Source of the DNA: Eucommia ulmoides
Lineage: Eukaryota; Streptophyta; Magnoliopsida; Garryales; Eucommiaceae
Direction of reading: 5' to 3'
DNA length: 64,000 nucleotides
NCBI GenBank assembly: GCA_016647705.1
Contig: CM028330.1
Coordinates: forward strand, 49,044,897 to 49,108,896
Shown: positions 621 to 50,266 of the stretch, one piece after another
Position numbering within the stretch: the stretch's first letter is position 1
How the letters are laid out: every line of letters starts with the position of its first letter
Notes under the pieces: generated by a model
The model's input: only the letters and a program-made list of their open reading frames with translations
The model's database searches: none
Told to the model about the DNA's origin: nothing
Translations under genes and position numbers: made by a program

Positions 621-1375
621 TGTAGCACACTTATTTTGAGTTGTTAAGTGTTTATAGAAAATGCAAAAGTAGAATAATGCAATGATAGATGGTTGCAAAT
701 TTGAAGGAGAGAAAATTTATTTTTATTCAAAGTGTTTTCTCAAAAGAAAAGAGAATAATTTTAAGATATTGAATTAAAAATAGAAATTCAGAAAAAATGA
801 TTAAGAATTCATACGAAATATTTGCGCAAATGGGAGATGTTCCAAGGTCTAGGGATTGCTACTCCGTCAAGATCTTCACGTTAATAGGCTCCTGGTCTAT
901 TTACTTTGGTTACATGGTAAAGGCCTCCCCAGTTCTAGGCCAAGAATCCCGATTGTAAGACCCCGATTTAGTACGTACATCATTTTAGTCGTATTTTAGA
1001 ACAATTGGGAAAATTCGAGGTGAAATTGGGTCAATTAAAAATTCAAATTAAAAGTTTAGGGGTCAATTTGCAAATTTACAAAATAGTCTATCCAAAAATT
1101 TACATTTAACTTTTGAATTAAAACTTTTGGGAGTGAGATTGTAATTTAGGAAATGTTAAGGGTGAAATTACCATATTAGACTCTTATAAATGGTGAATTG
1201 AACTCAAAAGATGACTTTTAGAAATTAGGGGTGAGGGAAGAGTAATTAAGCAAATAGGTTCTAGAAACATATAGAAATCCATATTTTCTTGTTGACTGTT
1301 GCCGTGAGATCAATCGATGGGCAGAGGATTTGGGAAGTGGACGACGTGGCTTGAAGAGGGAGCATTCTGGTCCAC

Positions 1376-1377
<2 letters not shown>

Positions 1378-1468
<91 letters not shown>
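1378..1468. repeat. (AT)n microsatellite
   Basis: About 90 bases of uninterrupted alternating TA. It produces false IYIYIY frames on both strands. Confidence 0.97.
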
Positions 1469-1471
<3 letters not shown>

Positions 1472-3199
1472 TACCCATAGTGCGTTAAAAGGGAGGAAAA
1501 ATCTGGAATCAAAGACAGAAAATCTAGAGAGAGAGAGGGTTTGGCCAGTGACCTCATGAGTGAGGGTGTGTGTTCCGATCGTTGCCAGAGTGGGTGTCGC
1601 CGTTCGGGCCGGTGGTGTGTGTTGCTACTACTATCATGGGTATGTGGGAATTCGTCAGTGTGTAGGTGATCAGATAAGTGTGTGTGTGTGTCAGTGGAAT
1701 CCAAATAGAAACAGAGAAAAGAGAGAGGTCCGCCGGAGGATGTCGTTTGTCGCCGTCTGTTTAGTAAGTAGGTGTGGGTGTTTAGTCATCGTTTGGTAAG
1801 GGTGTGTGTGTGTGTGTGTGTGTGTGTCTGTGTTTGTATGCCCGACAACATGTGTAAGTTTGTGGGTGTGTTTAGGTATGGATCGCCGGCATGAATGGTG
1901 ATCGTTCGGCGGAGGGTCTCCGTGTTTATCATGTGTGTTTGTTGTTGTGTATGTATGAGTGTGGTAGGTTCGGTCAATAATGTTTGGTGGACGATAGGTG
2001 TTCGGTCGTCGGTGGGTGGGGTCAGTAATTCGGCCGGTCGGAGAGTTAGAGAGAGAAAATGTGGGTTTCAGTTTGGGGGTGTGATCCGTTTAGTTGGGTG
2101 GTATGGGTGTGATTGTTGCCATCCTAGGTTGGTTAAAAGGAAGCGGAAGCAAAAAACGAAGAGAGAGAAAGAGAGCAGTGTATGTGCGTGTGTTGTCGTC
2201 GTCAGTTGTGTGCGTCGATCGTCAGGCGGTCGTGTGCATGTAAGTGTGTCGTTTGGTCGGATGGCATGTGTGCGTGGTGTGTGGGTGATCGCTGGTATAG
2301 GGCAACCGACGGTGAATGAGATCGCCAGAATAGATAGTAGAGAGAGAAAGGGGATGGTCGGCCAGGGCTGTAACAGGAACCAAAACAGGAAACAAAAGCC
2401 AAAACAGAGAAAAAGAAAAAGGAAGAAAAGGAAAAAATGGGGAATTTGCAGAAACCACCCTAGGAAAATCCAAAACCCATTTCGTGGCCGCCAAACGATT
2501 CGGAAAAAGGTGAAATTTCAATCGATTATTAATTTTCGTTAGATTAAATTTTATTTAGCATTACAATTTCTGATCGTAATAATTTCGTAGCGATTAATTA
2601 ATTTTAACAACGTGGTATATAAAATAGTAACGATTCGGAATATAGGGTCTGCATTGCATAATTAGGATATTCTAAATAAGATATTAATTTAGGCTCTGTC
2701 ACTATTAGGTTCGCAGGCACCGACGTCCAGATATAGAATGGTCAGGGTCAGTTTTGCAAAACGAATATCGAGGTAAGTGTATTGTCTTCTTGCCAAACTA
2801 TTTTTAATATATATATATATATATGCGTGTAAAATTGTTTTGATATAAACTGGATGGTTTTAAAATTATGTGGATCAAGCAGGTTTTTGGGTGAGTTGGT
2901 GAAATGGATTTTTGTCGAATTATGTTGATTTTAAAATAAAGTTGAAAATGATTTTCGTTGGATTCGGTGGTTTTAAAAGAGAGTGGAAAATATCTGGTTT
3001 TCTAAAAATAAAGAGTAGAAAAATGATTTTGGTGAAATCAAACGTTTTTTTTTAAAAGAAAGTGAAAAATATGATTTTGGATTAAAATCGATTTTGGAAA
3101 TAGAGGGTGATGTTTGAGATTTGACGATGTTAATTAGATGATATTATTGATTTGTGATTTGATGATGACGTTATTGATTTTGACGATACTATAATATTT

Positions 3200-3390
3200 A
3201 TTTGTTTCGGTAGAGTGATGTTATCCGCTTCGACGGAGTGATGTTTATCTGTTTTGGTAGAGTGATGTTAGATGTTATATTGCGCAGTGATTATCCGCTT
3301 CGACGGAGTGATGGGTGTTCATAGGAAGGCATATCCTATGGGTAGTACGGTACCGTTGCAACTCCCGATCGTGAGGTTAAAACGATCACT
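3200..3390 (+). other. LTR hairpin array plus conserved stem-loop
   Basis: Four short units of the type ATCCGCTTCGACGGAGTGATG precede a structured block. The block has a 7-bp hairpin CATAGGA/TCCTATG (3320-3340), the palindrome ACGGTACCGT (3347-3356), and a stem GATCGT / ACGATC with a 9-base loop (3367-3387). The same order occurs in the other LTR copies of this family. A role in the RNA (packaging, translation or dimerisation) is only inferred. Confidence 0.7.
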
Positions 3391-3973
3391 ATGGCTAGCC
3401 AGTGTGTGTTTTGATAGAGTGGTGGTTTGAGATGTGGTGTTTTACTTATATTGGGTGATTTATTATTTATTACGATGATTGGTATCATTTTATACTAGAT
3501 GGGTTTGAATGGAACTTATACTTATTGGTTTTATTTTCACTGCTTATATTATGGAGAATTTTACTAGCTACGTGTTGTCTATATACTTACGCTTGATCCA
3601 ATTAGATATTGTAGTTATGAATTATTATTATAAAATATTTTTACTAAGAAGATAGTACACTCGCAGGTGAAGCAGATAGGAGTCGGTCCCCTACTGGCAC
3701 TAGATAGAGTCCTACGATGGTGTCGGGTGTAGGTTTTGAGATGAGTTGTCTGGGGTGAACCTGTAAAAGGTTCATGGTATTTATTTTGCTGTTCACATAT
3801 TTGGGGATGGGTGAGTCCCCATAATAGAAAATTTGTATATGCATATTTTTTACGATTATATATTATTGTATGTGTATTATCGTTAAATGAGTTGGTTTGA
3901 CGTTCAGGTGATGTCATGTCGACGTCACGCCGGCCCCACAGTGAAGGGTGTCCGGGGTGGGGTGTGACAATTT

Positions 3974-3986
3974 TGGTATCAGAGCC
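3974..3986 (+). other. Primer binding site, initiator-Met tRNA type
   Basis: TGGTATCAGAGCC four bases after the LTR end, the standard complement of the 3' end of plant initiator methionine tRNA. It fixes the element's orientation as plus and confirms the LTR boundary. Confidence 0.9.
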
Positions 3987-5280
3987 AGGTTATAGGTTCT
4001 GTAGACTTATCAATTATTGTGTCAGTAGAGGACCATAAGATAGGAGGACGTGTCAGTCGTTTAGTCAGTAGGGGACATGAGATAGAGTGTCAATAGGTAA
4101 GTTCAGTACGTGAGTGTTAGTTCTTCCGTTGCATTAATTAGTACATTGGCATCGTGCCTAGTGGGTTGTCTGGCTGGCAAGTAGTGATACGACAAAACGG
4201 TGATATTGTCAGTTGGTGGATTTTAGTGACGTTGTGTTGTTGGTAATGGTAATGAGTGGATCGCAATCGTGGAAGTATAAGTAGTTGAAAATGTGAGATT
4301 TTATTTAAGACACAACTATTTGCATATGATATAACGATGAGATACTTATGGGTAGTACTTAGTAAGTTGTTATTAAAATAGTAGATAGTATAGCAGAACA
4401 CATGTAAGTTGGAAAATGAAATGACATTCAAATGAGTATAACATCGCCTTCTAGGCAATATGAAAGTCATCTTATAATGATATTGAAAGAAAGTTCTATT
4501 AGTTGGAAACTAAAGATGTGAGAAATGGTGACGAGAAGGTAGTACGTTCAAGATTGACGGGAAGGTAGAGCAAAAGTTTATGGAACTCGTAGATATAGAA
4601 AACGTAATAGAAAATGATCTGTAGGAAGTAGCCGAGAATTGTAAGTCTGGGATAAAAATAAGTGCGCATAAAATAAAAAAAAAATAAAAAAACCTCCATT
4701 TGTATGAGGTGGAATCACATCTTAGAAGAATCCAAGTGTGTATTGTTAGGAAGGTGTCACTAGTACCCCAATTAGTTTGATAGTGGGTCCAGGAGGTCAG
4801 AAAAAGGTGTTAAAGAAAGGATATCAAAATTCGGTATGTAGGAGCTAGGCATCAGACAAAACAAGTTCAGGTCGTGGATAATGTAGTAGCTAGGGATTTT
4901 CCCTAAACAAGTTCCGAGTGCTGTCGGGGTACTGGTAATTGTGATTAATAAATGAGGTTGTTGTAAAATAAGTTCTATAAGATTAAGGAAGTGAACGTCT
5001 AGCTCATTAAATTGGTTAGATATAATCATGTTGTGATAATTATAATCTTGGGATTTTAAAAGTGGTCACCATGATGTAGGAGGAAATTTAGTGAATTGAT
5101 TTAAGTCGACGATTGATTACACTTAGTTGAGTTTAAATGATCTCCGTGGTAAGTAATTAACAATTTGTTGAAAATTGAGAATTTGGGTAAGTTAGTTTTC
5201 GATTTAGGAAGTCTCTACAAGAGAAGCTTTTTAGGATTGGCGGGTTAATATTGACGGTTTGTGCAAGGATTTTATGTTAT
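3987..5280 (+). other. Degenerate interior of the Tekay-like element
   Basis: About 1.3 kb between the primer site and the reverse transcriptase traces. Gag and protease would be expected here, but I see no convincing motif in any frame. The stretch is too decayed to annotate further. Confidence 0.55.
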
Positions 5281-5763
5281 AGCAGCCCCGTTGACTCGTT
5301 TGATCGGCAAGGAATCCAAATTTGAGTGGACCGACAAATGTGAACAAATTTCTAGGAGCTGAAACGAAGATTGATATCGGTGCCAATATTGTCTCTCCTG
5401 TCAGAAGGAGGTAATTTTGTAATTTATAGCGACATGTCACACTAAGGGCTGGGATGTGTTCTGATGCAGTATGGTCATGTAATCGCATATGCATCTCGGC
5501 AATTGAAGAATCATGAGTGTAATTACCCGACGCACGATTTGGAGTTGGTAGCAATTGGGTTCGCCCTAAAGATTTGGAAGCACTATCTGTATGGCAAGAC
5601 GTGTGAAATATATACCGACCACCAAAGTTTGAAGTAATTATTTTCTCAGAAGGAATTAAATTTGAGACAGAGGCAGTGGATGGAGTTGATTAAAGATTAC
5701 GATTGCACCATCCACTATCATCCGAGAAAAGCTAATGTTGTAGCAGATGCGTTGAGTCGGAAA
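5281..5763 (+). pseudogene. Reverse transcriptase tail and RNase H remnant (gypsy)
   Basis: The plus strand carries gypsy pol motifs in order. A PLTRLIGK-like motif marks the end of the reverse transcriptase connection region, [13 protein letters not shown] and THDLELVAI are RNase H motifs, IYTDHQSL is the RNase H DHQSL block, and [14 protein letters not shown] and VVADALSRK form the C-terminal block. This order and wording match chromovirus pol. It is a broken fossil with several breaks; no complete domain remains. The frame then runs into LTR sequence. Confidence 0.85.
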
Positions 5764-6815
5764 AATGGTTTTGGTGAAATCAGACGTTTTTTTTTAAAAG
5801 AAAGTGAAAAATATGATTTTGGATTAAAATCGGTTTTGGAAATAGAGGGTGATGTTTGAGATTTAACGATGTTGATTATACGATGTTATTGATTTGTGAT
5901 TTGATGATGACGTTATTGATTTGACAATACTATAGTATTTATCTGCTTCGACAGAGTGATGATTATTTGCTTTGGTAGAGTGATGGTATTGATTTGATGA
6001 TGTGATTGATTTGACGATACCATAGTATTTATCCACTTCGGCAGAGTGGTGTTTATCTACTTCGGCACAGTGATGTTATCCGCTTCGGCGGAGTGATGTT
6101 TATCTGCTTCGGCGGAGTGAGAAAATTGCACAGTGATTATCCGCTTCGGCGGAGTGATGGGTGTTCATAGGAAGACATATCCTACGGGTGGTACGGTACC
6201 GTTGCAACTCCCGATCGTGAGGTTAAAATGATCACTATGGCTAGTCAGTGTGTGTTGTGGTAGAGTGGTGGTTTGAGATATGGTGTTTTACTTATATTGG
6301 GTGATTTATTATTTATTATGATGATTGGTATCATTTTATACTAGATGGGTTTGAATGGAACGTATGCTTATTGGTTTTATTTTCACTACTTATATGATGG
6401 AGAATTTTACTAGCTACGTGTTGTCTATATACTTACGCTTGATCCATTTAGATGTTGTAGTTGTGAATTATTATTATAAAATATTTTTACTAAGAAGACA
6501 GTACACTCGCAGGTGAAGCAGATAGGAGTCGGTCCCCTACTAGCGCTAGATAGAGTCCTACGATTGTGTTGGGTGTAGGTTTTAAGATGAGGTGTCTGGG
6601 GTGAACCTGTAAGAGGTTCATGGTATTTATTTTGCTGTTCACATATTTGGAGACAGGTGAGTCCCCATAATAGAAAATTTGTATATGCATATTTTTTAGG
6701 ATTGTATATTATTGTATGTGTATTATCGTTATATGAGTTGGTTTGGTGTTCAGGTGATGTCATGTCGACGTCATGCTAGCCCCACAGTGAAGGGTGTCTA
6801 GGGTGGGTTATGACA
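5762..6815 (+). repeat. Partial 3' LTR of the Tekay-like element
   Basis: About 1,050 bp closely matching the right third of the 5' LTR, including the A/G-rich stretch, the hairpin array, the conserved block and the terminal GTGTC...TATGACA. It ends against the CCGAT target duplication. Confidence 0.85.
5941..6233 (+). other. Hairpin array with TTCG loops and conserved stem-loop, second copy
   Basis: Seven units start near 5941, 5970, 6031, 6055, 6078, 6102 and 6139, about 24 bases apart where contiguous. The best units read TCCGC-TTCG-GCGGA, a 5-bp stem closed by C-G around TTCG, the UUCG type of very stable RNA tetraloop. The palindrome ACGGTACCGT (6193-6202) and the GATCGT stem-loop (6213-6233) follow. 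In this copy one stem base differs from the 5' LTR but still leaves a G-T (wobble) pair. Confidence 0.7.
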
Positions 6816-15236: not shown

Positions 15237-15460
15237 TGTAAGACCCTGATCTTTCTTATAAGTACAATTTGAGTCGCATTTGAGAAAATTTCAAAAATAC
15301 GGAGTAAATTGTGTTATTTGTTATTTAATCTAAAAATTTAAGGGGTTAATTAGCAATTTTCAAAATTTCAAATTGTAAATTTTTGGACTAAAATGTTCAA
15401 ATGGATTAAAAAGGAGAGTTAAAGTAATTAGAGGGGGAGATAGTGTAATTAAAGCGTAAA

Positions 15461-15513
<53 letters not shown>

Positions 15514-17772
15514 ATTTGTATTTGTGCATGTGTGTATCGGTAGATCAGTCGAAGAGAGAGAGAACCGAGATAAGATCTCGAAAAAAAAAAAAAAAGAATC
15601 GAGAAAGGATCGAGAGAAGTCGGTGGCTCAATTGTCTATACACATATCTTCATATGTATATTATATATATACATAATCAGGAAGAGCGACGAAAAATCAA
15701 GATGAAGAGAGAGAGAGAGAGATCCGCCAATGGGGATTGGCCGCCGACCGTGTGGGGTTCACCATCGGTGAGTTTCTGGGTTCGTGTCTCTGTGTGTGTG
15801 GGTGTGTATGTACTGCATATATATTATTGGTGATCATGGGCTGGTGCATGTTTGTATGTGTGTATGTGTGTTTTGTTCTCCGTTCGTCGTTGTCATCGTT
15901 AATTTTGTGTGGTGAGGTGTCGTCGGTTGGTTGAGACGAAATGGAAACAGAAGCGGTGATTGTGGGTATGTGTATTGCATGTGTGATCGTCGCCGTTCGT
16001 TGTCGTGTGCGGTGGGTGTGTGGTCGGCTGCGATTGCGTGTGTTGTGTATGTGTTAGGGTTGTGTATGCATGCTCCGTTCTGATCAGTGTGTGTGAGTCG
16101 ACCTCTGTGTTTGTGCCGACGATTTGCGTAGGTGGGTGCTCTGCCTCATTCCTGCCAATTGTGTGTTTGTGTATATATGAGTGTGTTCTGTCCCATTCCG
16201 TCATTGTGTGTGTGTGTGTTGCTCGTCGTTGACAGGAGGTGGGTGTGTGATCATTGCCAACGTTCGGCCAGCGAGTGTGTATGTGTGTGTTGTATCTGCT
16301 GTTGTGGGTGTGTGTGTATTGATCGCCGACGGTGGGTTGTCGGAAAGAGAGAGAGCTGGTGGGCAGCAAAATTTGATCGGCGGCAGGGAACCAACAAAAC
16401 ATAATAAGAGCAGGAAAAGAAAAAAAAAAGTGGGGGGAGGGAAAGAATAAATTACACAAATAGCCCCAACAAAATTCAAAATTTGTCTCGCAACCAGTGA
16501 ACGATTCGCAGACACTAGCGTCCAGATAAAGTATGGTCAGTGACAGTTTTGCAAACGAATATCGAAGTGAGTGTACTGTCTTCTTGCCAAACTATTTTCT
16601 ATATATATATATGATGACATATATGTTTACTTACACTGTACAATTTCATAAATGATATGGATCAAGCAGGTTTTTGGGGTGAGTTGGTAAAATGAATTTT
16701 CGGATAATTGTGTTGGTTTCTAAAAAGAAGGATTAAAAATAATTTTCGTTGGATATGGGTGTTTTGAAAAGATAGTGGAAAATATATGGTTTTCTAAAAA
16801 TGCTTGGTTTTCTAAAAACAAAGGTGGAAAAATAGTTTTTACTGAAATCGGTGGTATAAAGGTGGAAAACTGGGTTTTTTTTTTTACTGAAATTGGTGGT
16901 ACTTTTAAAAAGGAGAGTGAAAAACGTGATTTTGGAAATTCTCCCCGAAAGGGGTGTGGTTTATATTCTCCCCATAAGGGGTATGGATTTTTGACAATGT
17001 GGTGTGAAAATGAATTTCTCCCCATAAGGGGTGCGGATTTTTCCCATGGGATATAGATAGTTCTTCCCGTAAGGGGTGTGGATTATATTTCTCCCCAAAA
17101 GGGGTGTGGATTATATTTCTCCCCAAAAGGGGTGTGGATATTTCATAGGAAGGCATTCCTACGGATGTTACGGTACCGTTGCAACCCCCGATCGTGAGAT
17201 TAAAACGATCACTATGGCTAGCCAGTGTGTGTTGTGGTGGAGTGGTGGTTCGAGATGTGGTGTTTTTCTTATATTGGGTGATTTATTATTTATTATGGTG
17301 ATTGGTATGATTTTATACTAGATGAATTTGGATGGAACTTATCTATATCGCTTTATTTTCACTGCTTATATACTGGAGATTTTACGAGCTATGTGATGTT
17401 ATACACTTACGCTTGATCCATTTAGATATTGTAAAATGAATTAATATTTTTACTAAGAAGGCAGTACACTCGCAGGTGAAGCAGATAGGAGTCGGTCCCC
17501 TACTGGCGCTAGGTAGAGTCTTACGATGGAGTCGTGTGAAGGTTTAAGATGAGCTGTATATGGCGAATCTGTGAGAGGTTCATGATATTTATTTGTTGTC
17601 CTTATATTTGGGACGGGTGTGTCCTGATAATAGAGAATATGTTTAGCTTATATAGATGATGGTTTATTGATGTATGCATATTGTCGTTAAATAGATGGTT
17701 GGTTGATTAGATGATGTCGTGTTATCGTCACGCCATCCCCGGGATGTCGGGTGTCCGGGACAGGTTGTGACA
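15237..17772 (+). mobile_element. Solo LTR of the Tekay-like family
   Basis: It starts TGTAAGACCCTG at 15237, ends GGTTGTGACA at 17772, and is flanked by a perfect 5-bp duplication TGTAT (15232-15236 and 17773-17777). Its 2,536 bp align along their length with the LTR at 954-3969: the GT-rich stretch, the GCAGACACTAGCGTCCAGAT phrase, the A/G-rich stretch, the hairpin array, and the GAAGGCAGTACACTCGCAGG segment. No interior remains. It arose by LTR-LTR recombination and lies inside the antisense coiled-coil frame. Confidence 0.93.
16941..17210 (+). other. CCCC/GGGG hairpin array and conserved stem-loop in the solo LTR
   Basis: Six units begin near 16941, 16968, 17018, 17063, 17091 and 17119. 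They read CTCCCC-(GAAA, ATAA, GTAA or AAAA)-GGGG, that is short stems with 4-base loops, the first of GNRA type. They occupy the place of the TTCG hairpins of the other LTR copies. Palindrome ACGGTACCGT (17170-17179) and the GATCGT stem-loop (17190-17210) follow as in those copies. Confidence 0.7.
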
Positions 17773-24094: not shown

Positions 24095-24551
24095 TGTCAC
24101 GGTCTTAGCTTGTCCAGTGCTTGTTCTCGCACATGGCCACTTGTCTGTGACCCTTTTCATTTGTTTTCTAGACTAGTTTAGCTTAGATTAGCTTAGTTTA
24201 GTTTATTTCTTTCATTTCTTGTAGAAAGACACCATTATGACTCCTCGGGCATAATGATGTCTATTGTGGTCACTTGTATTTTTTTCCGTAAAGTATTATG
24301 TGGGAGGACATGCTCTTGAAGTCATTCAAGCCTTTCACACCTTGTAGCCTTTGATATTAATACAATTGTTATTGTTATTGTAATTGTATTCTTCTCTACA
24401 TTGCCAGCATGTGTTGTTGTAGGGAAACTCGTTGCTATTGAAACCGCTTCCGCTATTTAAGATCCTCTAATCTTCAGGCTTGCTACTAGGCGATCCCCTA
24501 GTTAGCGCCGTACGTTCCACTTTCTAGCCTCAAAAGGCTCGGCCCGTGACA
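24095..24551 (+). repeat. 5' LTR of the gag-only element
   Basis: 457 bp, TGTCACGG...CCGTGACA. Followed by the primer site TGGTATCAGAAC at 24554-24565 (initiator methionine tRNA type). Confidence 0.95.
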
Positions 24552-24553
24552 GT

Positions 24554-24565
24554 TGGTATCAGAAC
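24554..24565 (+). other. Primer binding site of the gag-only element
   Basis: TGGTATCAGAAC two bases after the LTR, matching initiator methionine tRNA except near its end. Confidence 0.85.
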
Positions 24566-24605
24566 AACGGACCGATCCGTTGCCTGACTACGTTGGTGAA
24601 ATACC

Positions 24606-27014
24606 ATGTCGACGAAAGATCGTCTCGACGCGCTTGAACAAAGCGTTTCCCGCATTGACGCTGCTCTAGCTCTTTTGCGAAGCCCCAATGCTAATGAGGA
24701 GGTGACATCTCAGAACCCCCAAATCGATCACCTGATCAAACGGATGGGCCTAGTTACCAAGACATCCGCTGGCCATCATGCTCAGATGGAACAGTCAGTC
24801 ATTGATCTCCGAAGCGAGTTGGACGACTTAAAGAACATTGTGTACCGAGCTCTTGCTAGAGACTCCAAGCAACCTACTTCGAGGGTTTGCCTTCCGGAAC
24901 CTCAATCCTATGGCGGTTCAAGAGACGCCAAGGAGCTTGAAAACTTCCTCTTTGATGTGGAGCAATACTTTCGGGGCACCGGAGTAACCTCCGAGGAAGA
25001 AAAGGTGACAACAGCTTCCATGTATCTTTGTGGTGATGCTAAATTATGGTGGCGAACCAAATATGCAGACATCCGGGAGGGAAGCTGCACTATCAATACT
25101 TGGGAAGACCTTAAAGGTGAACTTAAGGTACAATTCCTTCCTGAAAATGTCGAGTACACGGCTCGACGAAGACTGAGAGAGCTGAAACAGACCAGACAAG
25201 TCCGAGACTATATCAAGAAGTTTATGGCTCTCATGTTGGACATTTGTACAATTTCCCAAGAGGACAAGTTGTTTTGGTTCCTAGATGGCTTGAAAGATTT
25301 TGTACGTCAGGAAATACAAAGACAACGTCCTGCTGATTTATCTGCTGCCGTTGCTGCTGCAGAAAGAGTAACTGATTACTCTCCTGAACCTACCACTAAC
25401 CATGATAAGAGGAAAGACAAGAATGTCACCCATCATGATGGAAGTGGAGGTCAATCATCTCCGGGAAGCCCACCAAGACGTTGGAGCAACCCCAACTCAA
25501 ATTCTAATTCAAGGAGTCCTCCAAGGAGTCCGCGCCGAGGTCAACACTCAAGATCTGGCCGTTCGTTCAACAACTCAGGGGCATCACTGGGTTCGACAAA
25601 CCAGAAGCCTCACTGGGGCAGACAGGCCCATAAAAATCCAACTCCTTGCGTTTTGTGCAACAAGAATCATGATGTATCCGATTGTCCACATAAACATGCT
25701 TTGTCCGCGCTGCAAGCATCGATTCAGGAAGAAAATGAACGTCGGGGAAAATATATTGTAGAGCAGGAGGAGGAAACTTCAGACGCGTCTGATGCTTATC
25801 AAATGAGTACAATTCGTTTGTTGAATGCCATGAAACGACAGCCGGTCGCGAAGAAGAAGGTCATGAAGAAGAACCTCATGTTCGTGGACCTTCGAATTAA
25901 TGGGAGAAATTCTTGTGCTTTAGTTGACACTGGTGCTACACACAATTTTATGTTCGATAAGGAAGCTAATCGGTTGGGCTTACGTGTCAAAAAGCACTCA
26001 GGGAGATTGAAGGCCGTGAATTCTGAAGCGAGTCCCGTGATTGGAGTCGCCAACACGGTACACATGAAGATTGCTCCGTGGGATGGGTTCCTCAACTTCA
26101 CCATTGTTCCCATGGATGATTTTCAAGTGGTATTGGGGATGGAATTCTTTATGGACACTAAGGCGGTCCCAATGCCTTTTGCAGATTCGCTTTGTATGAT
26201 GGGAGATCGATCGTGTGTCATTCCTACAACGCGATATTCAATTAAAGACAGATCCGTTTCGGCTCTGCAGCTTGAGATGGAGGAATATCAAGACGACCTT
26301 CTAGTTCTTAGTGGGGGAGAAACTAACCCACAAGGGCCACCTTTGATTCCAGCAAAAGGGTTGTGTGACTATGTTCGAATTGCTTCTCCAAGCGAAATTC
26401 CAGAGGAGTTTCCCCCTCATCCGGATGGGGAAAAATCTACAGATATCAAGTTCCGATTAGGCCAATCCGCTTTCATGTTAGCCAACAGTGCGAAGACCCA
26501 TTTGCTTTCGATGGGACTATATCCAAAAAGACGGAAGTACCGACTTTGTGTGCCGAGGGTCGGAGATTCGGGGAACAAAGGTACAACAGTTGTAGTGGTG
26601 GATAAAGCTTTGAGTTCTACAACCTTATATCCAGCACTTCAATTCCAATACTCCAAGGACACCGCCACACAGGTTCTCAAGCATGATACTCAGTTGTGGA
26701 ATGCTCCGAGGGGTATTGATTCGCTCTTCAATCTACACAAGTACTTTGATGTCAACTTGGGATCTAGTGAGATTGTCGCAGACCAGCCACTGTATCCTCA
26801 TTCAATGGATAAGCTCTACAAAACCAACATATCTGGAAGACAGCAGAAGACGTTACAACCGAAGACCAAATCAAAAGCAGTATCAGAAGAAGTCTACGAG
26901 GACGTCGACAGCTCAAGTGGGGGAGAATGTCACGGTCTTAACTTGTCCAGTGCTTGTTCTCGCACATGGCCACTTGTCCATGACCCTTTTCATTCGTTTT
27001 CTAGACTAGTTTAG
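24606..27014 (+). CDS. Gag-protease polyprotein, 802 aa
   Basis: This single open frame is the best-preserved coding sequence in the window. About residues 1-85 form a helical N-terminus (DRLDALEQSVSRIDAALALL). The retrotransposon gag core spans about 95-260 (AKLWWRTKYADIREGSCTI and WEDLKGELKVQFLPENVEY). A Ser/Pro/Arg-rich linker follows, then a CxxC-x4-H-x4-C zinc knuckle (CVLCNKNHDVSDC), and then an aspartic protease with VDTGATHNFM and a VVLGMEFF flap-end motif (about 430-520). The last ~280 residues match no polymerase domain, and the tail runs into the 3' LTR. It would build particles that need enzymes from another gypsy element. The start is the first ATG 40 bases after the primer site. 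Confidence 0.9.
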   Translation: MSTKDRLDALEQSVSRIDAALALLRSPNANEEVTSQNPQIDHLIKRMGLVTKTSAGHHAQMEQSVIDLRSELDDLKNIVYRALARDSKQPTSRVCLPEPQSYGGSRDAKELENFLFDVEQYFRGTGVTSEEEKVTTASMYLCGDAKLWWRTKYADIREGSCTINTWEDLKGELKVQFLPENVEYTARRRLRELKQTRQVRDYIKKFMALMLDICTISQEDKLFWFLDGLKDFVRQEIQRQRPADLSAAVAAAERVTDYSPEPTTNHDKRKDKNVTHHDGSGGQSSPGSPPRRWSNPNSNSNSRSPPRSPRRGQHSRSGRSFNNSGASLGSTNQKPHWGRQAHKNPTPCVLCNKNHDVSDCPHKHALSALQASIQEENERRGKYIVEQEEETSDASDAYQMSTIRLLNAMKRQPVAKKKVMKKNLMFVDLRINGRNSCALVDTGATHNFMFDKEANRLGLRVKKHSGRLKAVNSEASPVIGVANTVHMKIAPWDGFLNFTIVPMDDFQVVLGMEFFMDTKAVPMPFADSLCMMGDRSCVIPTTRYSIKDRSVSALQLEMEEYQDDLLVLSGGETNPQGPPLIPAKGLCDYVRIASPSEIPEEFPPHPDGEKSTDIKFRLGQSAFMLANSAKTHLLSMGLYPKRRKYRLCVPRVGDSGNKGTTVVVVDKALSSTTLYPALQFQYSKDTATQVLKHDTQLWNAPRGIDSLFNLHKYFDVNLGSSEIVADQPLYPHSMDKLYKTNISGRQQKTLQPKTKSKAVSEEVYEDVDSSSGGECHGLNLSSACSRTWPLVHDPFHSFSRLV

Positions 27015-27380
27015 CTTAGATTAGCTTAGTTTAGTTTATTTCTTTCATTTCTTGTAGAAAGACACCATTATGACTCCTCGGGCATAATGATGTCTATTGT
27101 GGTCACTTGTATTTTTTTCCGTAAAGTATTATGTGGGAGGACATGCTCTTGAAGTCATTCAAGCCACACCTTGTAGCCTTTGATATTAATACAATTGTTG
27201 TTGTTATTGTAATTGTATTCTTCTCTACATTGCCGGCATGTGTTGTTGTAGGGAAACTCGTTGCTATTGAAACCGCTTCCGCTATTTAAGATTCTCTGAT
27301 CTTCAGGCTTGCTACTAGGCGATCCCCTAGTTAGTGCCGCAAAGTCCACTTTCTATCCTCAAAAGGCTCGGCCCGTGACA
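26928..27380 (+). repeat. 3' LTR of the gag-only element
   Basis: 453 bp, preceded by the polypurine stretch AAGTGGGGGAGAA and followed by the CACAG target duplication. Confidence 0.95.
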
Positions 27381-29745: not shown

Positions 29746-30733
29746 TGTAACGACCTGGTTTCCTAGGGCCACCACGCGGTTTTTCCTCTTGGAGTATTAA
29801 AACTAAAATCGGATCGCCAATATTTATTATACAAAAATTTAGGTAATTTTTACAATGCAACGGCAACAATTATAATTATCGAATTCAACGATTCAATTTT
29901 TACAATAGGAAACAATAGTTTACAAATACAATTATTACAAATTAAGTAGCAATTCAATTAAAAATTTTGTTGCCGTCTCGTTCTCACCGGCCTTGCAATC
30001 AAAATTGTGGGTTTGTGAGTCAATGCTAAATAGAACTCCAACTCTTCTAATACGTGCATGTAATACGATAAATAAAACACATAAACATGATTTTCACATA
30101 ATCACAATTATTTCATAAAACTTAACAGTTAAAATTCAACAACAATAACAACATAAATCTCACAATAGAAAAATTAAATACATATATTAAAAGAGTTAGA
30201 AATTCTACCTGAAATTCGAAGCCGAAACCTGAACCGGAATTTATTTCTCGCTCTAACACCACAGTAGTTTCATATATATGCATAAATAAATAAAAAGGGC
30301 TAATGATCATAATTTTTCCATTTCAAAACTACTTAATGACTCCTAATATCCTTATTTATATTATTATTATTATTATTATTATTATATAATAACATCACAT
30401 GTGTTCGTGCATGCAAACTATATATATATATATATATATAGTTTGAGTTGATTCCTTATTTGAGAAATAATCAATTTAATCCACAATTATATTTATTTAT
30501 TTACACAATGTCCCCTCTTAAATAAAGAAAATATTATTATATCCCAAAACTCTTAAAAGTATATTTTAAATAATACATTAGTCTCAAAACTTCTAAAATC
30601 AATTTAAAACAAACATTTAACTCTAAAAAATTATCAAATATTATTTATGCTATAAATTCACAAAGTAGTCTAAAAAATATTAAACTTTTATATAAAATAA
30701 TATTTTCAAAAAAAAAAAAAATAGGGTATTACA
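29746..30733 (-). repeat. 3' LTR of the minus non-autonomous element
   Basis: About 988 bp. On the minus strand: start TGTAATACCC, then an (ATT)n run and AGGTAGAATTTCTAACTCTT, ending TCGTTACA. Its phrases recur in the LTRs of the 35311-55191 element. Confidence 0.88.
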
Positions 30734-30750
30734 ATCTACCCCTTAAATAA
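30734..30750 (-). other. Polypurine tract of the minus non-autonomous element
   Basis: The minus strand reads TTATTTAAGGGGTAGAT directly before the LTR start. The plus-strand relative has TTATTTAAGGGGGCTAGAT at the same place (before 53794). Confidence 0.75.
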
Positions 30751-31204
30751 ATTTTGTCCTCAAAATTTTGTTCAAGCAATAATAATTCAGAATCGCACCG
30801 TGCTAGTCACTCTCGGTTAAATAATAATAATCGAAAGTCACCATCATACTGCTACTATGCTTCTCTGACAAAAATAGTAATAAATAATAATATATCTTTA
30901 AAATATCACGATAATCTTATTGGATTGGGTCTATCTCTATTCCAACAGGCTTACGACCTTAATAATTTTTCCATTTGGCATGACTTTTCAAGTCCACTAC
31001 TATATCCCATAACTAACATTTACCAATTCCGTCCGACAATTCAAGCCAACATGTTCTCAACCAGCGTCTTATCCAACAGATAGCCCAATTCCTTATAGAC
31101 TGTCCCGTGAGACCAAAAATAATCATTTTCAATATCCACATTAAATTTTAATAATATCGTAAGTTTTTTCATAAAATATCAACACAATCCAAACTTCAAA
31201 TAAC

Positions 31205-31460
31205 GGATATTATGAAATATATCCTAATACATGAATACATGACAACCACATAAATATGTCTCAAAATACTCAAATGCGTCTCAATCATATAAATATATCT
31301 CAAAACACGTAAATGCAACTGAACCACATAAATATGTCTTGAACACATACACATGTCACAAATGCGTTACTATGTCTTAACCATCCAAATACGTTTCAAA
31401 CACCTAAATATATGTCAAACTATATAAACCAAATACATCCCAAATCACATAATTACGTCT
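31205..31460 (-). repeat. Tandem array of ACATAAATATGTCTC-like units
   Basis: About nine degenerate units of some 25-30 bases containing CATAAATATGTCTC or AATGCGTCTC variants. The reverse complement of this array appears in the relative at 52860-53130. Confidence 0.75.
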
Positions 31461-31856
31461 TTAAAGTTACGTAACATAACAAATTCAATACTAAATTCAA
31501 TACTCACGTAGATTATATAATGCCCCAATCACATTTTTATGGCACTAATTAAACTCAAAATTCAAATTAACGTTTCCAACTAACTACGGGCTCCTACTAG
31601 TCTCATAATGACCCCACACTCCAACTCTACCTAGCGCTAATTGTGGATCAATATCTATCTGAGTTATTTTTATAGGTGTACTGTCTTCGTGGTATAAAAT
31701 ATTTTTATCAAAATCTACTTCCCAATAAAATATAGCCACACGGGCCAGTATCCGAATCCCAACAAAAATATCCTCATAAAAGAACAATTGAATTTAAATC
31801 AACCAATCAACTCACTTGTATATAATAAAATAACATACTTTCTTGTCAGTCATAGG

Positions 31857-31876
31857 ATCGTTTTACCTCACAATCG
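31857..31876 (-). other. Conserved stem-loop, non-autonomous family copy
   Basis: The minus strand reads GATTGT - 8-base loop - ACGATC, followed by CTATGACTG. It is the same stem-loop as in the Tekay-like LTRs; the C-to-T difference in the stem leaves a G-T pair. It lies downstream (minus sense) of the array at 31895-32390. Confidence 0.75.
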
Positions 31877-31894
31877 GAAGTTACCATATCTACT

Positions 31895-32269
31895 TTATAG
31901 GATTTGTCTGACAGGTAATAACATATATAATATATAATATATCTACCCTGCAAGACTTGCCTGACAGATAACAATATATATAATATATCTACCATGTAGG
32001 ACTTGCTTGACAGGTAATAACATATATAATATATATTATATCCACCCTGCAGGACTTGCCAGACAGGTAACAACATATATAATATATCCACCCTGTAGGA
32101 CTTGCCTGATAAATAATAACATATATAATATATAATATATCCATCCTGCAGGACTTGCCGACAGGTAACAACATATATAATATATCCACCATGTAGGATA
32201 TACCTGACAGGTAACAATAAAGATATAACATATATAATATATCTATCAGGCAGGACTTGCCTAACAGGT

Positions 32270-32328
<59 letters not shown>

Positions 32329-32390
32329 CCACCCTGCAGGACTTACCTGACAGGTAACAACATATATCCACATCTCACAGGACTGACCCT
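31895..32390 (-). repeat. 45-54-bp tandem array with CCTGCAGG junctions
   Basis: About nine units starting AGGACTTGCCTGACAGGTAA, each with an ATATATAATATAT spacer and a CCACCCTGC end, so unit junctions read CCCTGCAGGACTT. Unit length alternates between about 45 and 54 bases, and one unit holds a long (TA)n run (32275-32323). The relative at 52140-52350 has only two long units. Confidence 0.9.
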
Positions 32391-32559
32391 CTTGAAGAGA
32401 AGACAGCTATGGCATAGCAGAATAATAAAAATAATTTTTCCACCTTTCAAATTTTACTTGATCCATTAATCGTTATATAACTTTCTATTTCATCGACATT
32501 TTTTTCCCACAATTTAAAACAAAAACATAATTTGATAATTTATATAAAGACAGTAAACA

Positions 32560-32907
32560 CTATGAAAGGTCATGGGCCAGGCCGGGCTTAGACTAGTGTA
32601 TTACAAAAAAAATGTTGGGCTCTAGCCCGGCCCGGCCCAGTGATCGGGCCTTAATTCTATGCCCAAGTCCAGCCCTATAAGAAAATTTTAAGCCTAAAGC
32701 CCAGCCCACGGGCCCCCGGCCCTATTTTTTTTTTTTTTAAATTTAAAAAATAAATACAAAAAATTCAACACCAAACCAATAAGAAATATTAAAATTACAA
32801 TTTTTAAAGGTAAACCAATATTCCAAACAAACTAAACCAACAAGAAATATTAAAATTACAATTTTTAAATAAAACTAATATTCCAAATATTAGGGTTGTA
32901 TTGTAAC

Positions 32908-32957
<50 letters not shown>

Positions 32958-33153
32958 TTTTTAAATATCCTTCAGGCCGGGCTGGGCCGGCCCTAAAATT
33001 TTTTAATCTTGCCCAAGCCTGGCCCTAATTTTGATCGGGCCCTAATACCTAGGCCCTGGCCCGGCCCGTGGGCTTAAACTCTAAGCCCAAGCCCTAAAAA
33101 AATAGGGCCGGGCCGTTCGGGCTGGGCGGGCCCCCAAGCCCATGACCATCCCT
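32560..33153. mobile_element. hAT-type MITE with GGGCCGGGCC-rich arms
   Basis: 594 bp flanked by a perfect 8-bp duplication AGTAAACA (32552-32559 and 33154-33161), the hAT length. The right end read inward is AGGGATGGTCATGGGC; the left end CTATGAAAGGTCATGGGC is a diverged partner. Both arms are packed with GGCCCGGCC-type phrases while the centre is A/T-rich with an (AT)n run (32910-32952). No coding. Confidence 0.88.
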
Positions 33154-33289
33154 AGTAAACACCTTTAAATTAATATTTCTAATTCAACAATAAATTCTAT
33201 TGCCCAAGGCTAACACGACACTTATCAAGGCTTATTTAATTTATTATTGGTAAGTTGTATTAATCAAACGGTACATAAAATGTTAGTAT

Positions 33290-33640
33290 GTTCAATTTGG
33301 AACTTGTAGGGACCAAAGTGAAGTAATGGTAACAATACATGGGTGCAAAGTGTCAAACCACCAAAAATATACTATCACAAAAAGCTTTTAATCTTGTCCA
33401 ATTCTCTTGAAAAAAAAATCTTAGAATTTCAGGTGGCAGTAGAGAAGTAAAACAACCTCAAACAAGTGTGTAGCTACATAGTAGTACAGTCCAGTGTTTA
33501 AGACACTGTCGCACGAAGCGGTTGCATGCGTGACAAAGAGCTAAACACAATAATTTAAGTTCAAGGATTCAAGAAAATATTCAGATTTTTGAACATAATA
33601 CTACCTAGATTTTTTTATTTTTTATTTTTGTGAGCTAACA
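33290..33640. repeat. Unidentified repeat inside the non-autonomous element
   Basis: It starts near GGGACCAAAGTGAAGTAATGG and shares about 100-170 bases of ordered phrases with 23925-24094. It has no counterpart in the plus-strand relative. Past it, around 33640-33890, a piece of LTR sequence is duplicated before the main 5' LTR. Confidence 0.5.
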
Positions 33641-34196
33641 CTCAGCAGAACTCCAACTCCTCTAATATGTGCATTTAATTAATGCGACAAATAAAACATA
33701 TAAACATGATTTTCACATAATCACAATTATTTCATAAAACGTAAAAGTTAAAATTCAATAATAATAACAACATAAATCTCACAATAAAAAAATTAAATAC
33801 ATATATTAAAAGAGTTAGAAATTCTACTTGAAATTCGAAACTGAAATCTGAACCGGAATATATTTCTCACTCAAACGCCGTATAACTCCAACCCCTCCAA
33901 TACGTGCATTTAATTAATGCGATAAATAAAACACATAAACATGATTTTCACATAATTACAATTATTTCATAAAACTTAAAAGTTAAAATTCAACAACAAT
34001 AACAACATAAATATCACAATAGAAAAATTAAATACATATATTAAAAGAGTTATAAATTCTACTTGAAATCCGAAACCGAAATCTGAACCGGAATATATTT
34101 TTCACTCAAACACCATAGTAGTTTCATATATATGCATAAATAAATAAAAATGGCTAATAATCATAATTTTTCCATTTCAAAGCTACTAAACCACTC

Positions 34197-34200
<4 letters not shown>

Positions 34201-34252
<52 letters not shown>
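34201..34252. repeat. (TTA)n microsatellite
   Basis: About 17 TTA/ATT units within the 5' LTR; a shorter run lies at the same place in the 3' LTR (30357-30385). Confidence 0.95.
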
Positions 34253-34595
34253 ACATTACACGTGTTCATGCATGCAAACTATATATATATATGGTTTGAG
34301 TTAATTTTTTATTTGAGAAGGAATCAATTCAATCCACAATTTTATTTATTTATTTATTTAAACAATGTCTCCTTTTAAATAAAGAAAATATTGATTATAC
34401 TCCAAAACTCTTAAAGGTATATTTTAAATAACACATTGGTCCCAAAACTTCTAAAATCAATTTAAAATAAACATTTAACTCTCAAAAGTTATCAAATATT
34501 ATTTATTCCATAAATTCACAAAACAGTCCAAAAAATATTAAACTTTTATATAAAATAATATTTTCAAAAAAAATATAAATTTTTGGGGTATTACA

Positions 34596-35310: not shown

Positions 35311-35999
35311 TGTAATACCCCAAAAATTTATATTTTTGAAAATATTATTTTATGTAAGTCTAATATTTTTTGGGACTGTTTTGTAAATTTATGATATAAA
35401 TATATATATTTGATAATTTTGGGATGAAATGTTCATTTTAAATCAACGTTTAAAAGTTTTTGGACTATTTTCTATACTTTTAAGAATTTTGGAATATAAT
35501 TAATATTTATCTATTTTAAGGGGAGACATTATGTAAATAGATAAATAAATTAGTGATCAAAATCATTTCTTTCCTATGGAAAGAAACAAAATTTGACCTT
35601 ATGTTTATACACTACAACAAAAACTGCCTATAAGGGCACCTCCGTTGGGACACTATATGGATTGTGCTCTATAAATGTGCTTTTCGGGGCACAAAATTGA
35701 AAGTGTCGCATAAAAGTAAATTTGTTGGGACACTATATGTTATTGTGCCCTATAAATGTATTTTTTGGGACACTATATGTATTGTGTCCTATAATCAAAT
35801 ATTTAAAGGATATAAAGTAGTGCCCCAATAACATTTAATTAGTAATTCAATACATTAATATCCATATATAATATAAAAGGACATAAAATAGTTCCCTAAA
35901 AACATAAATTATATCAGGGCATAATTTTGTGTCCTATTATAATTTAATTACATATATTAAAATAAATTAATTGATATTTGCGCAACTTAACCCCCCCCC

Positions 36000-37290
36000 C
36001 AAAAAAAAAAGGGGTGCCCTCTCTCCTGCTCACACATTTGGTGAAAAAAAAAAAAAACAGTCATTTGGGTTTTGGTTTTCCCCCCCACACCTACAGTCTT
36101 ACTCTAACTCTCTTAGTCTTGATACCCACCCCTAAACCCTTTCGTTTTTCTCATTTTCCTTTTCATCGCTCTATCGCCGATAAAATTACCTTAGACATCT
36201 CAGCCCTCTCTCTCGATCTTAGCCCTCATTGTTAGTGGTGGGGTTTGTTTCATCTCCTCATCACTCTTCTTCCTATCGTCACCAGTGGGAGTCCTATCAA
36301 TTTGCGCAACATAGGCTCGGGGCTTGTCACGTTTCAAAAATAGTCTCAGATTAAGGATTTGAATTGGAATGGTTGTTGAAGGTCATCGGTGGTCGACGAT
36401 GTTCATCAGTGGTCAGCGATGGTCATCGATGGCCAAATCGAGTTGGCGAAATCATTCAGGTATTATATTTCTTCTTCTTATTCTTCTTGTCCGAAACCCT
36501 AATCTCATTTCTCTTAAAATTGATTTATGATTCTAATTTGGGATAAATTAACTTCCAATCGGATCTGATTTGGCTAAATCTAATCTCGATTTCTCTGTTT
36601 TTAACATATTCTCATTCCATCACAGGTATATACATATCTCCATCGCAGGTACACACGATTCTTTCATTCTCTTAATCACTTCATCTCCTCTTCTTTGTTT
36701 GTTGTCGAGATCTTGAAATTTGTGTATTTCTGTGCAATTGAGAGATGTATCCCTGTTATTCCTATTATTATTTATTTTCCTGCAATTTTTTGGTGTGAAT
36801 TCTTGGGAGATAACCTCTGAGATTGAGTTTTAAATCTCAGTATTTGCTTGATCTGTTTTTTTTTTTTTTTTTGTTGATAAATTACACAAGGTTAAATGAT
36901 TTATTTGCTTTTGTTGGTCAAGTATTTCTGATCAAGGGGGAAAATGTAGTTTGCTTTTAATTGAGTTCTTTCAGTTGTTGTTGGTGCTTTAGTCACTAGT
37001 GAGAAGGTTGATGACTTGGGGTAGGGCCTATAAAGAAATATATAGTTTGAAATGAAAACATTCTACAAACTGAGGTTAGTGCAATAATTCTTAGAAGGGC
37101 ATAAACTCTGCTGAGAATATTCCCGAATTTGTGTAGCTTGCATAATAATATTAAAGAGACTTAATACTTCATTTTTGAACTTCAGGATTGTTCTTCAACT
37201 AATACTAGTATATATGAGTTGCAATATGAATAAGTTGGAGAAGTACAGGTTGTATCATAACTTACATTGATTTATAAAATGATTTGATGA
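36000..37290. other. Gene-like interior of the CACTA element
   Basis: CT-rich leader-like sequence with CCTAAACCC and AAACCCTAA phrases, a cluster of short GGTCATCGGTGG-like repeats (36378-36430), then AT-rich intron-like DNA. Short frames of 60-85 residues occur but match nothing I recognise. It may be captured host 5' gene sequence; this is inference. Confidence 0.35.
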
Positions 37291-37303
37291 ATTGTAGGGT
37301 TCA

Positions 37304-39016
37304 TGGTAGTGCGTAAAATACGCCGCTACTTACACTCGTAAGTATACGAGGTCTAAGTTTTAGTATAGTGTGATCATTAAGATCGGGTTATCGTATCCAC
37401 AGAGATTGGTGTCGTTACTATCGAATACCGCGTTTGTCGTGACCTAAGTTTATCTAGGCGAAAAATAAATGTAATTAATTAATTAAACTAATACTAATAT
37501 AACCTAAATTAACTACACTAATATGCTAATATGTTTTAGGGTGAAGAATCGCCTAGGAATTAACGTGTTTACAAATACGTGTTCGATCTCGATTTACTTA
37601 CGTTTACGGTGTTCGACCTATTTGACAACCTCGGTACGTAAACTCCACCGCCATCTCTCCCGAGTGTAAGACGGGGGAATACATGACTTCGAGCCAACGA
37701 AGAAATCCCCCTCAACGTCTTAATGACCCTAGGTCAAATGAGTCTCGCCCAGCTTCATTGATTGCACACAGTCCAACTCCCTCCCGGGTTATTGGATCGT
37801 CGCGTTGTATTTACCCTATCAACAATCTCCGTTCTAAAACTCTCTCGTCACCTCTTCCGAGTGTAAAACGAGGGATATAACGCAACTTTGAGTCAATGAA
37901 AAAGTCCCCCTCAACGTCTTAACGACCCTAGGTAGTGTGTGTCTTACCCAACGTCATCGATTGTCCACGATTCAAACCCCGACCGGGTTATAGAATCGTG
38001 GTTTTTGTTTAGCTTAATCCGAATCCGGGGTTTGTCAAAACCCGTATTCTACATTTATCAATCCAAGCATAATAAACAAACAATATGATAAATACAATCA
38101 AACTACGAAGAACAAACATAAACGCAACACCGAAATCATCCAAACAATGTATTTACAAATATAGTGTTAATCCCTACTACAATCCATATTTAACTCGTGG
38201 CTATAGCTGTATAAACATGAAAGAACGAGCTAAACATACTCACGTGATCCTAAGATAAAGAAATAAAGAAAAACAATCGAAGAACTTATCCTCGTCCGAA
38301 GAGAATCCGCTAAGAACGCTCTACGATCGATTCAACATCTTCTCCACTTCGGGATGTGAGCTCCACACCTAAAACTCCTAACTATACCCTTAGATATAGC
38401 CTAAAGGGCTCAAAAATCCATGGGAGAAAGAGAGTCACCGGCCAAGGGGAAGGAGAGGGGATATTTATAGCAAAAATATCCTAAAAATATCTCAAGACTG
38501 TGCAGGGCAAATCCGCCTAGGCGGTGGAAATTGCGCCTAGGTGGAGTTAGGTCTGTTCGGTCTGATCACCTAAGCGGTGAAGTAGGCGATGGACTGGGAG
38601 AACATTCTGTTGGATTTTCGCCTAGACGAAGAAAACTTCGCCTAGGCGAGCGACTGTCAGTAGCCCATCTGCGTCCTCTATTGGATTTCCGCCTAGGCGA
38701 TAGAATCTTCGCCTAGGCGGTCGTCCGTTAGTAACATTTTTCTCTTCTCAGCATCTTCACCGCTTAGGCGGTGGTCTGGACGCCTAAGCGGTGGGCCTGT
38801 TTTATCTTTATCCTCCGAGCTTGTTTATCCACCGTAACTTCGAACCGCTTCGGTTCGATCTCATCGTTTTAGCTCCAATTTCCTATCTTTTTGCCCCACA
38901 CACCTGATTTATACAAAAAGTATGAAAACTAATTAAAACATAATAAAATAATATATAAACATATTCAAAAACTAACAAATTCCGATTGGAAATAGATAGG
39001 TTTTTCACACCTATCA
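37304..39016 (+). mobile_element. Solo-LTR-like TG...CA element, copy 1
   Basis: It starts TGGTAGTGCGTAAAATACGC, ends TTTTTCACACCTATCA, and has near-perfect flanks GTTCA/ATTCA (4 of 5). 1,713 bp, no coding. Landmarks shared with copies 2 and 3: AAGTTTTAGTATAGTG, GTTATCGTATCCACAGAG, CCTAAGTTTATCTAGGCGA and CTCCCGGGTTATTGGATCG. It has an internal ~200-bp duplication (unit at 37707 and again at 37906) and an array of CGCCTAGGCG palindromes at 38505-38800. TG/CA ends and 5-bp target duplications point to a solo LTR of an unplaced family. Confidence 0.75.
38505..38800. repeat. Array of CGCCTAGGCG-type palindromes
   Basis: About ten occurrences of CCGCCTAGGCGG, TTCGCCTAGGCGA, ACCGCTTAGGCGGT or ACGCCTAAGCGGT, in irregular spacing over 300 bp, many fully self-complementary. 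Copies 2 and 3 of the element have different palindromes at the same place (CCGCNGCGG types). Confidence 0.85.
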
Positions 39017-41037: not shown

Positions 41038-41059
41038 AGAGCCTAATCTAAACCCTAGC

Positions 41060-44496: not shown

Positions 44497-44544
44497 TTCA
44501 ATGATAACTCCTTAAGGAATAAAACAACTCACGGCCCCAGTGGT

Positions 44545-50087: not shown

Positions 50088-50088
50088 T

Positions 50089-50265: not shown

Positions 50266-50266
50266 A

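Follow-up and report, generated by a model that had tools for sequence, protein, structure and literature searches.

A conserved sequence block in a candidate spliceosomal intron of Tekay-like LTRs and its counterpart in a non-autonomous retrotransposon family of Eucommia ulmoides

A close described parallel to the elements analysed here is the BARE1/BARE2 pair of barley, in which the autonomous partner makes both spliced and unspliced RNA, the spliced RNA serving Gag translation, and the parasitic BARE2 is without splice signals and stays unspliced, as far as the accessible part of the source goes (PMC3735527). Our elements resemble this pair in being apparent plant LTR partners (a Tekay-like family, A, and a non-autonomous family, B/C) and in that the donor of the B/C type is weakened, as BARE2 is without splice signals. 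They differ from it in that BARE1 is a Ty1/copia element and its 104-nt intron lies at the end of gag, outside the LTR (PMC3735527, same part). According to the available sections of a recent review, plant LTR retrotransposons are generally intron-free; Ogre and EVADE have functional introns, a likeness to the intron proposed here, which make subgenomic RNAs and for which those sections describe neither an LTR location nor an occurrence in Tekay/Del elements (PMC12786077). In rice, the non-autonomous LTR family Dasheng has RIRE2 as its putative autonomous partner, much as we suppose a partner for B/C, and the accessible text on this pair does not mention a captured intron-like LTR segment (PMC5473765).

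Del/Tekay elements have long LTRs with conserved ends, the range given in the available part of one survey being 1143-4831 bp, and the U5 end of our element A1 carries GGG at -8 to -10, as type A does (PMC4029996). That paper covers att sites and CpG islands, and the words 'hairpin' and 'secondary structure' are absent from its text. For Retrosat2, an element of another plant with an LTR of more than 3 kb, a short U3 (R from nt 244) and an R of about 2 kb are predicted, so that much LTR sequence would be transcribed leader; an LTR intron is not mentioned in the portion of that source at hand (PMC3485330). No description of an intron within a Tekay/Del LTR was found in the literature searched, which consisted of main texts, mostly outside subscription journals and partly in excerpt.

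The window is a 64,000-nucleotide stretch of E. ulmoides contig CM028330.1 (GCA_016647705.1), and its features are collected in Table 1. The LTRs of A1 and A2 (3016 and 2536 bp) have the length typical of Tekay/Del chromoviruses. An RNase H fragment of A1 (Pfam E 6.8e-21) is the sole RT/RNase H-type piece identified, and the label Tekay-like rests on the naming in the original prediction, on LTR length and on the LTR ends. The interior of L142, another A element, matches SH3_Tf2-1 in Pfam (E 9.8e-27), rve at E 7.5e-6 (26.6 bits, below the cut-off of 32.6) and Chromo at E 8.7e-4 (19.6 bits, below the cut-off of 25.1); a third frame matched no family. B and C have the make-up of LARDs or other non-autonomous LTR retrotransposons, with an LTR pair, a TSD, a PPT before the LTR start and, in C, a PBS with one mismatch to what we take to be the initiator-tRNA motif; B is without its own 5' LTR end and PBS. 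Judged by frame length, the longest stop-to-stop frame in the interior of C is 94 aa.

The window holds further repeats. A copia-like element at 40853-50268 sits between the two parts of the C 5' LTR; its end repeats share 89% identity over 178 bp, and it has a PBS-like site at 41031 and Pol_BBD at 43966-44496. A short Ty3-type element at 24095-27380 has LTRs of about 457 bp with 96% identity and an open frame of 804 codons, in which Pfam found domains for gag and aspartic protease and none for reverse transcriptase. An LTR element at 57756-63057, with about 1.2 kb of end repeats at 83% identity and a PBS-like site at 58974, gave no match to the block profiles described below, and a 75-bp tandem repeat of 5.6 copies lies at 199-618.

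Table 1. Features of the window (positions in the window; a slash marks a proposed exon-intron border)
Feature	Position	Strand	Remarks
A1, Tekay-like element	954-6815	+	TSD CCGAT
A1 5' LTR	954-3969	+	begins TGTAAGACCCC, finishes GTGTGACA; PBS at 3974
A1 3' LTR, 5' part deleted	5760-6815	+	joined to RNase H remnant (frame 5446-5637)
A2, solo LTR	15237-17772	+	TSD TGTAT
B, non-autonomous element	29746-34595	-	TSD TATCA
C, non-autonomous element	35311-55191	+	TSD ACACT
C 5' LTR	35311-35609 and 50298 to ~51447	+	split by nested insertions
C PBS	51451	+	
C 3' LTR	from 53794	+	
Proposed intron, A1 5' LTR	2773-3666	+	donor ATCGAG/GTAAGT, acceptor CTCGCAG/GTG
Matching unit, A2 solo LTR	16567-17475	+	donor CGAA/GTGAGT; exon AG changed to AA
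Block 1 (stem-loop motif), A1 5' LTR	3367-3387	+	
Block 1, A1 3' LTR	6213-6233	+	
Block 1, A2 solo LTR	17190-17210	+	
Block 1, interior of B	31856-31875	-	
Block 1, interior of C	52371-52390	+	outer pair A.C
24-bp dyad-symmetric tandem array, A1	3197-3317	+	just upstream of block 1
Further block-adjacent tandem arrays	5935-6163, 16942-17141		
A1 region of ~400 bp homologous to B and C	3318-3720	+	holds blocks 1 and 2
Unit in C homologous to part of D-family LTR	51981-52731	+	left edge at donor position, donor weakened
Same unit in B	31694-32558	-	left edge 32558; last aligned base 31694

The stem-loop motif that gave rise to this work, block 1, lies in A1 within a unit that has the appearance of a spliceosomal intron in Tekay-like LTRs. 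This proposed intron is 894 nt long and T-rich (0.40 versus 0.29 and 0.33), and the block is placed 594 nt past the donor and 279 nt ahead of the acceptor's end. Among 32 distinct A loci, we observed GT...AG borders with a conserved donor, as in spliceosomal introns: donor-like sites (up to 7 mismatches in 24) occur in 27 loci, with GT in 27/27 and AGGTRAGT in 22/27, and acceptor-like sites (up to 7 mismatches in 22) occur in 31, with AG in 27/31 and CAG in 23, intact GT and AG being partly built into these counts because a site was picked for its resemblance to the motif. The best splice-like site in reversed sequences had 8-11 mismatches. For at least one locus with a missing site, L074, too little sequence was covered by the search. 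The acceptor context varies by family (CGCAG/G, YNAG/TACC and TTCAG/A), and a putative branch point was recognised by resemblance only. The block itself was considered as the donor (GAG/GTAAA), a candidate that was abandoned once the stronger donor upstream was found.

LTR copies made from spliced RNA would be expected to lack the intron exactly. A pattern of 25 bases built to span the predicted exon-exon junction (ATCGAG/GTGAAGCAG), searched with up to 3 mismatches, matched one place genome-wide, L175, and none in the control. This copy is without the equivalent of window positions 2773-3666, to within 2-3 bases that are common to both borders. It corresponds to positions 1697-1821 of the A1 LTR up to the junction (78% identity) and 2712-3016 from the junction (75%), and from the junction onward it is 83% identical to A2. 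These flanking alignments are independent of the pattern that we had designed ourselves. Of 13 other copies compared, 11 align across both sides, eight of these from the left up to +3. L175 was the one intronless LTR copy found; at the level of genomic sequence, this single retrocopy displays precise removal of the proposed intron.

The original prediction had described five copies of the stem-loop in two families of LTR elements. All five are present in the window, and the phrase that follows the second arm reads CTATGGCT in 3/3 copies of the A type and CTATGACT in 2/2 copies of B/C. The minus-strand copy exists, with its stem at 31856-31875 rather than at 31857-31876. Two copies had been said to carry stem changes; we found three, since the copy at 52371 reads AATCGT in its first arm and ACGATC in its second, an A.C break that had gone unmentioned. 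All changes in the three altered copies are transitions, at positions where the other copies have CpG. The copies at 3367 and 6213 sit in the two LTRs, 5' and 3', of a single element and are not independent, so the five sites represent four insertions in two families. With two copies from one element and one with a broken outer pair, the picture of five independent, structurally selected hairpins was not borne out. The hairpin by itself is weak evidence, since a hairpin pattern allowing 2 mismatches and a loop of 9 bases, and so leaving aside B and C with their 8-base loops, gave 4 window matches against 1.1 expected, a number reached by 3/100 shuffles. There were no matches in Rfam at the gathering threshold, no tRNA genes by ARAGORN and no matches to a degenerate form of the block in viral contigs. 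The block's 16 fixed bases had 73 prokaryotic matches in the genome contig set, which are uninformative because about 120 are estimated by chance.

Homology between the families extends well beyond the hairpin. The three LTR copies are recovered by a profile built from the pair of non-autonomous ones (E 3.6e-8, 1.5e-6 and 1.4e-4); in the reversed window the best match of four profiles had E 8.2 and the B/C downstream profile found nothing, which argues that the homology between A and BC is not due to chance. The sequence around the block, supposed earlier to be otherwise very different in the two families, is in fact similar over about 400 bp (BC profile against A1 3322-3720, E 3.7e-15), and the B/C downstream profile also covers 6168-6560 (E 1.8e-13) and 17181-17532 (E 4.3e-10). 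In A1 the shared region reaches about 54 nt past the proposed acceptor. It has two peaks, block 1 (the stem-loop motif together with CTATGRCTAG) and, some 200-300 bp downstream of it, block 2 (around 3640-3710 in A1). Identity over the aligned region is 0.58-0.60 between A and BC, against 0.79 between B and C, in keeping with an old block rather than a recent copy between families; A1 and A2 share 0.91.

Across the genomic copies sampled, the primary sequence of the block is strongly conserved. At 10 A loci the non-CpG arm columns do not differ at all, with 5-20% differences in the flanks. At 30 loci of the BC pattern they differ from the majority by 1.9%, compared with 15-41% in the flanks of the same copies, a figure that describes a mixture, since about eight of the 30 were later read as LTRs of a third family (D). 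In A loci the well-conserved stretch corresponds to about 3318-3720 and is bordered by the variable tandem array and a variable tail; this sample comprised 38 loci, six places being represented twice, and 28 of the 32 distinct loci had been picked by the exact core. The genome of 946.7 Mb contains 8,522 A-type places at up to 3 mismatches and none in the reversed control.

The block lies inside the LTR in Tekay-like copies and is internal in C, about 0.9 kb past the PBS. Family D was found by a DNA search with a piece of the L132 LTR, 40 of 3,935 candidates being scored. In its elements L166, L168 and L171 integrase lies upstream, the U3 of the LTR is similar to the U3 of C, and the LTR contains block 1, block 2 or both at about 1.1-1.6 kb from its start, the core being absent from L168. 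Since D elements carry integrase together with a block in the LTR, block-in-LTR is the arrangement of pol-bearing elements, and block-in-interior was seen in the B/C type. When 29 BC-pattern loci were compared with D LTRs, 16 began their homology at positions 848-858 of the D166 LTR, which is the donor, eight looked like D-type LTRs with homology running through, and five began elsewhere. At this edge the D LTR reads GAGGTGA/GTGTATTG, that is, AG/GTGAGT; the first donor in the 11 BC copies displayed has no GTRAG at the edge and takes forms such as GTGTTT. On the right, 15 loci stop at D166 1511-1521, four of them at a tandem junction, among the matches listed (up to nine for each locus), and most D166 alignments stop just short of the AG; against D171 or D172, several continue to 1600-1670, 40-75 nt beyond the AG. 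In C an acceptor-like TATTCAG ends at 52692 and similarity to one D copy continues to 52731. In these alignments the left edge of homology is sharp and the right edge is not. A block-independent sample, 12 loci picked by LTR end plus PBS, contained five loci with a C-type leader and seven without; in three of the five the unit is present and its left edge falls no more than about 10 nt from the position seen before, and two run out of sequence.

It had also been suggested that the non-autonomous family borrows the machinery of a Tekay-like partner. This dependence of B/C is supported indirectly, by a similar PPT and LTR start, by a similar PBS and by the pol-bearing elements, which combine a BC-like U3 with block 1, block 2 or both in their LTR. 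The PPT plus LTR start of L142 scored 41 against B (best of 300 shuffles, 23), 51 against the second PPT of L132 (24) and, more weakly, 26 against C (22); the first PPT of L132 matches A (46 versus 24) and does not exceed shuffles against B or C. A PBS-like site could be located at a small number of B/C-type loci (C, L114, L120, L138 and L141), 0.9-1.6 kb ahead of the block; downstream of the block, 14/30 loci have a C-type PPT or LTR start at a distance of 0.4-1.5 kb. In L132 itself the block is preceded by pol, a PPT and an LTR start of Tekay-like type and followed by a PPT and an LTR start of the B/C type, an arrangement that may have come about through nesting.

Some loci have a composite structure of another kind. 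In block orientation, positions of about 1110-1390 in L132 (about 280 bp) have 90% identical copies at four other genomic places, perhaps an unrelated small repeat. L143, L150, L152 and L154 have C-type internal sequence up to the PPT and then a PBS, with LTR-end matches in three of the four, and are apparently tandem elements sharing an LTR. L128, with internal 3' sequence ahead of the LTR and a PBS behind it, is likewise read as a tandem element.

On this evidence we think that the block is probably a conserved primary-sequence motif within a spliceosomal intron of Tekay-like LTRs, acting as a cis element of the unspliced genomic RNA. Transcripts begun upstream in the LTR would either be spliced, with loss of the intron, or remain unspliced, and the full LTR could be rebuilt from the unspliced RNA only, so that a block confined to the intron would mark the genomic, replication-competent RNA, much as retroviral packaging signals do through their place downstream of the major splice donor. 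The spliced LTR RNA would be a messenger without the block, the genomic RNA a molecule with it. With a weakened donor, RNA of the non-autonomous family would tend to remain unspliced and to retain the motif. Splicing in RNA is inferred, as would be any role of the block in packaging, export or expression; the packaging or leader function proposed originally is compatible with an intron-like unit.

The unit is doubled head to tail in 7/29 loci (L114, L115, L117, L118, L120, L125 and L138). At the junction in L118, L120 and L138, ..ATAAA is joined to GTGAG and the acceptor end is absent, as in read-through of an intron lariat; L117 has an extra G, and L114, L115 and L125 have a different junction. 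A more elaborate reading, which we regard as unlikely as a whole, would place an identity signal for genomic RNA inside the LTR intron of Tekay-like elements, so that unspliced RNA alone has it. A gene-less family would have captured this intron and lost its strong donor, its RNA would then always bear the signal and parasitise the particles of the partner, and the ATAAA-GTGAG junctions, where the putative branch region meets GTGAG directly, would be traces of lariat reverse transcription. The same doubling, together with the common left edge, would fit one capture from a Tekay LTR plus amplification, the unit in the non-autonomous family being a relic by shared descent that is now functionless there; the non-CpG core columns, far less variable than the flanks of the same copies in the BC and D-type mixture, make this doubtful.

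Another tentative possibility, with a modest claim on the data, is that the block works at the DNA level or as an intron-mediated element, binding a host factor and boosting LTR transcription, with the dyad arrays as enhancer repeats, a role that has been proposed in Sirevirus LTRs. Immediately ahead of the block, A1, A2 and BC all carry tandem arrays, which differ in sequence and have a period of 28 bp in A2, 46/99 in B and 97 in C. Those of A1 and A2 are dyad-symmetric with different sequences (TTCG loops in A1, CCCC-NNNN-GGGG in A2) and recall the repeated motifs of Sireviruses, in whose LTRs palindromic repeats precede a conserved promoter, according to the accessible text of PMC2829016. 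The conservation of the loop, described below, would also suit a protein-binding site. Against this stands the block of BC, which is internal, outside the LTR, and still conserved. Covariation within the A1 array (11 units) was considered and rejected (48/55 cells paired versus a shuffled mean of 47.3, p 0.44), and the folding z-scores of the arrays are inconsistent (-2.83, -0.78, -0.23, -0.01 and -1.23).

A shift of the LTR boundary, in which a PBS newly arisen ahead of the block would have made internal leader out of what had been LTR, agrees with the similar distances from LTR start to block (2413 bp in A1, 1953 in A2, 2372 in C) and is nonetheless improbable, since similarity between BC and D stops at about D166 1515 or D171/D172 1600-1670, short of the LTR end near 1860, and remnants of an old PBS in C or B are at chance level.

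The original prediction had taken G-T wobble pairs in changed stems as a sign of selection on an RNA structure, a proposal that genomic copies did not support. At the inner CpGs, a C>T change on the read strand leaves a wobble pair in the stem, and a G>A change disrupts the pair. In the comparison that the prediction itself had named, pair-breaking stem changes in genomic copies are about as common as pair-keeping ones: at the inner two CpGs the ratio of keeping to breaking was 20:18 in A copies (p 0.87; 100 listed of 2,400) and 21:18 in the BC type (p 0.75; all 51 matches). The 2,400 A-type places are those that match when the stem is left free, and the 100 listed come from one contig and include 51 of wild type. 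Compensatory doubles numbered 2 against 2.8 expected in A and 5 against 5.8 in BC, shuffling the arms between copies left pairing unchanged, and 0/6 helix pairs changed on both sides among the window copies, so compensatory covariation of the kind seen in structured RNAs was not found. The five copies fold about as well as shuffles (z-scores -0.11, 1.64, -0.62, -0.98 and 1.01), and the stem is absent from the minimum-energy fold of C. A pattern that fixes the arms and allows any loop matches 1,738 places, and 24 of 100 listed loops differ; per-site change in loop versus arms of the listed copies was 5/600 versus 3/600 at A/T sites and 20/300 versus 5/100 at non-CpG G/C sites, and the loop is conserved as much as the arms. 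Stem changes probably arose mostly in dead copies and so cannot show selection in the source elements; the wobble-pair argument is removed all the same.

Selection on pairing was thus not detectable. A stem-loop maintained by pairing is very improbable, for all that helix 2 forms in 96.7% of cells in the five window copies and that genome-wide totals (1,684 for wild type plus keepers, 1,633 for wild type plus breakers, the wild types being included in both) leave a small keeper surplus of 51 in its favour: besides the even ratios, the missing compensatory excess, the unremarkable folding and the conserved loop, the aligned D-type copies L132, L166, L171 and L172 carry pair-breaking changes and L168 is without the core.

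If RNA confirms the LTR intron, an abundant lineage of plant retrotransposons would have an intron in its LTR, with splicing choosing between messenger and genome. The parasitic family would then, if the reading is true, show which part is needed in cis, and packaging studies of plant Ty3-type elements would gain a test target of 28-40 bp.
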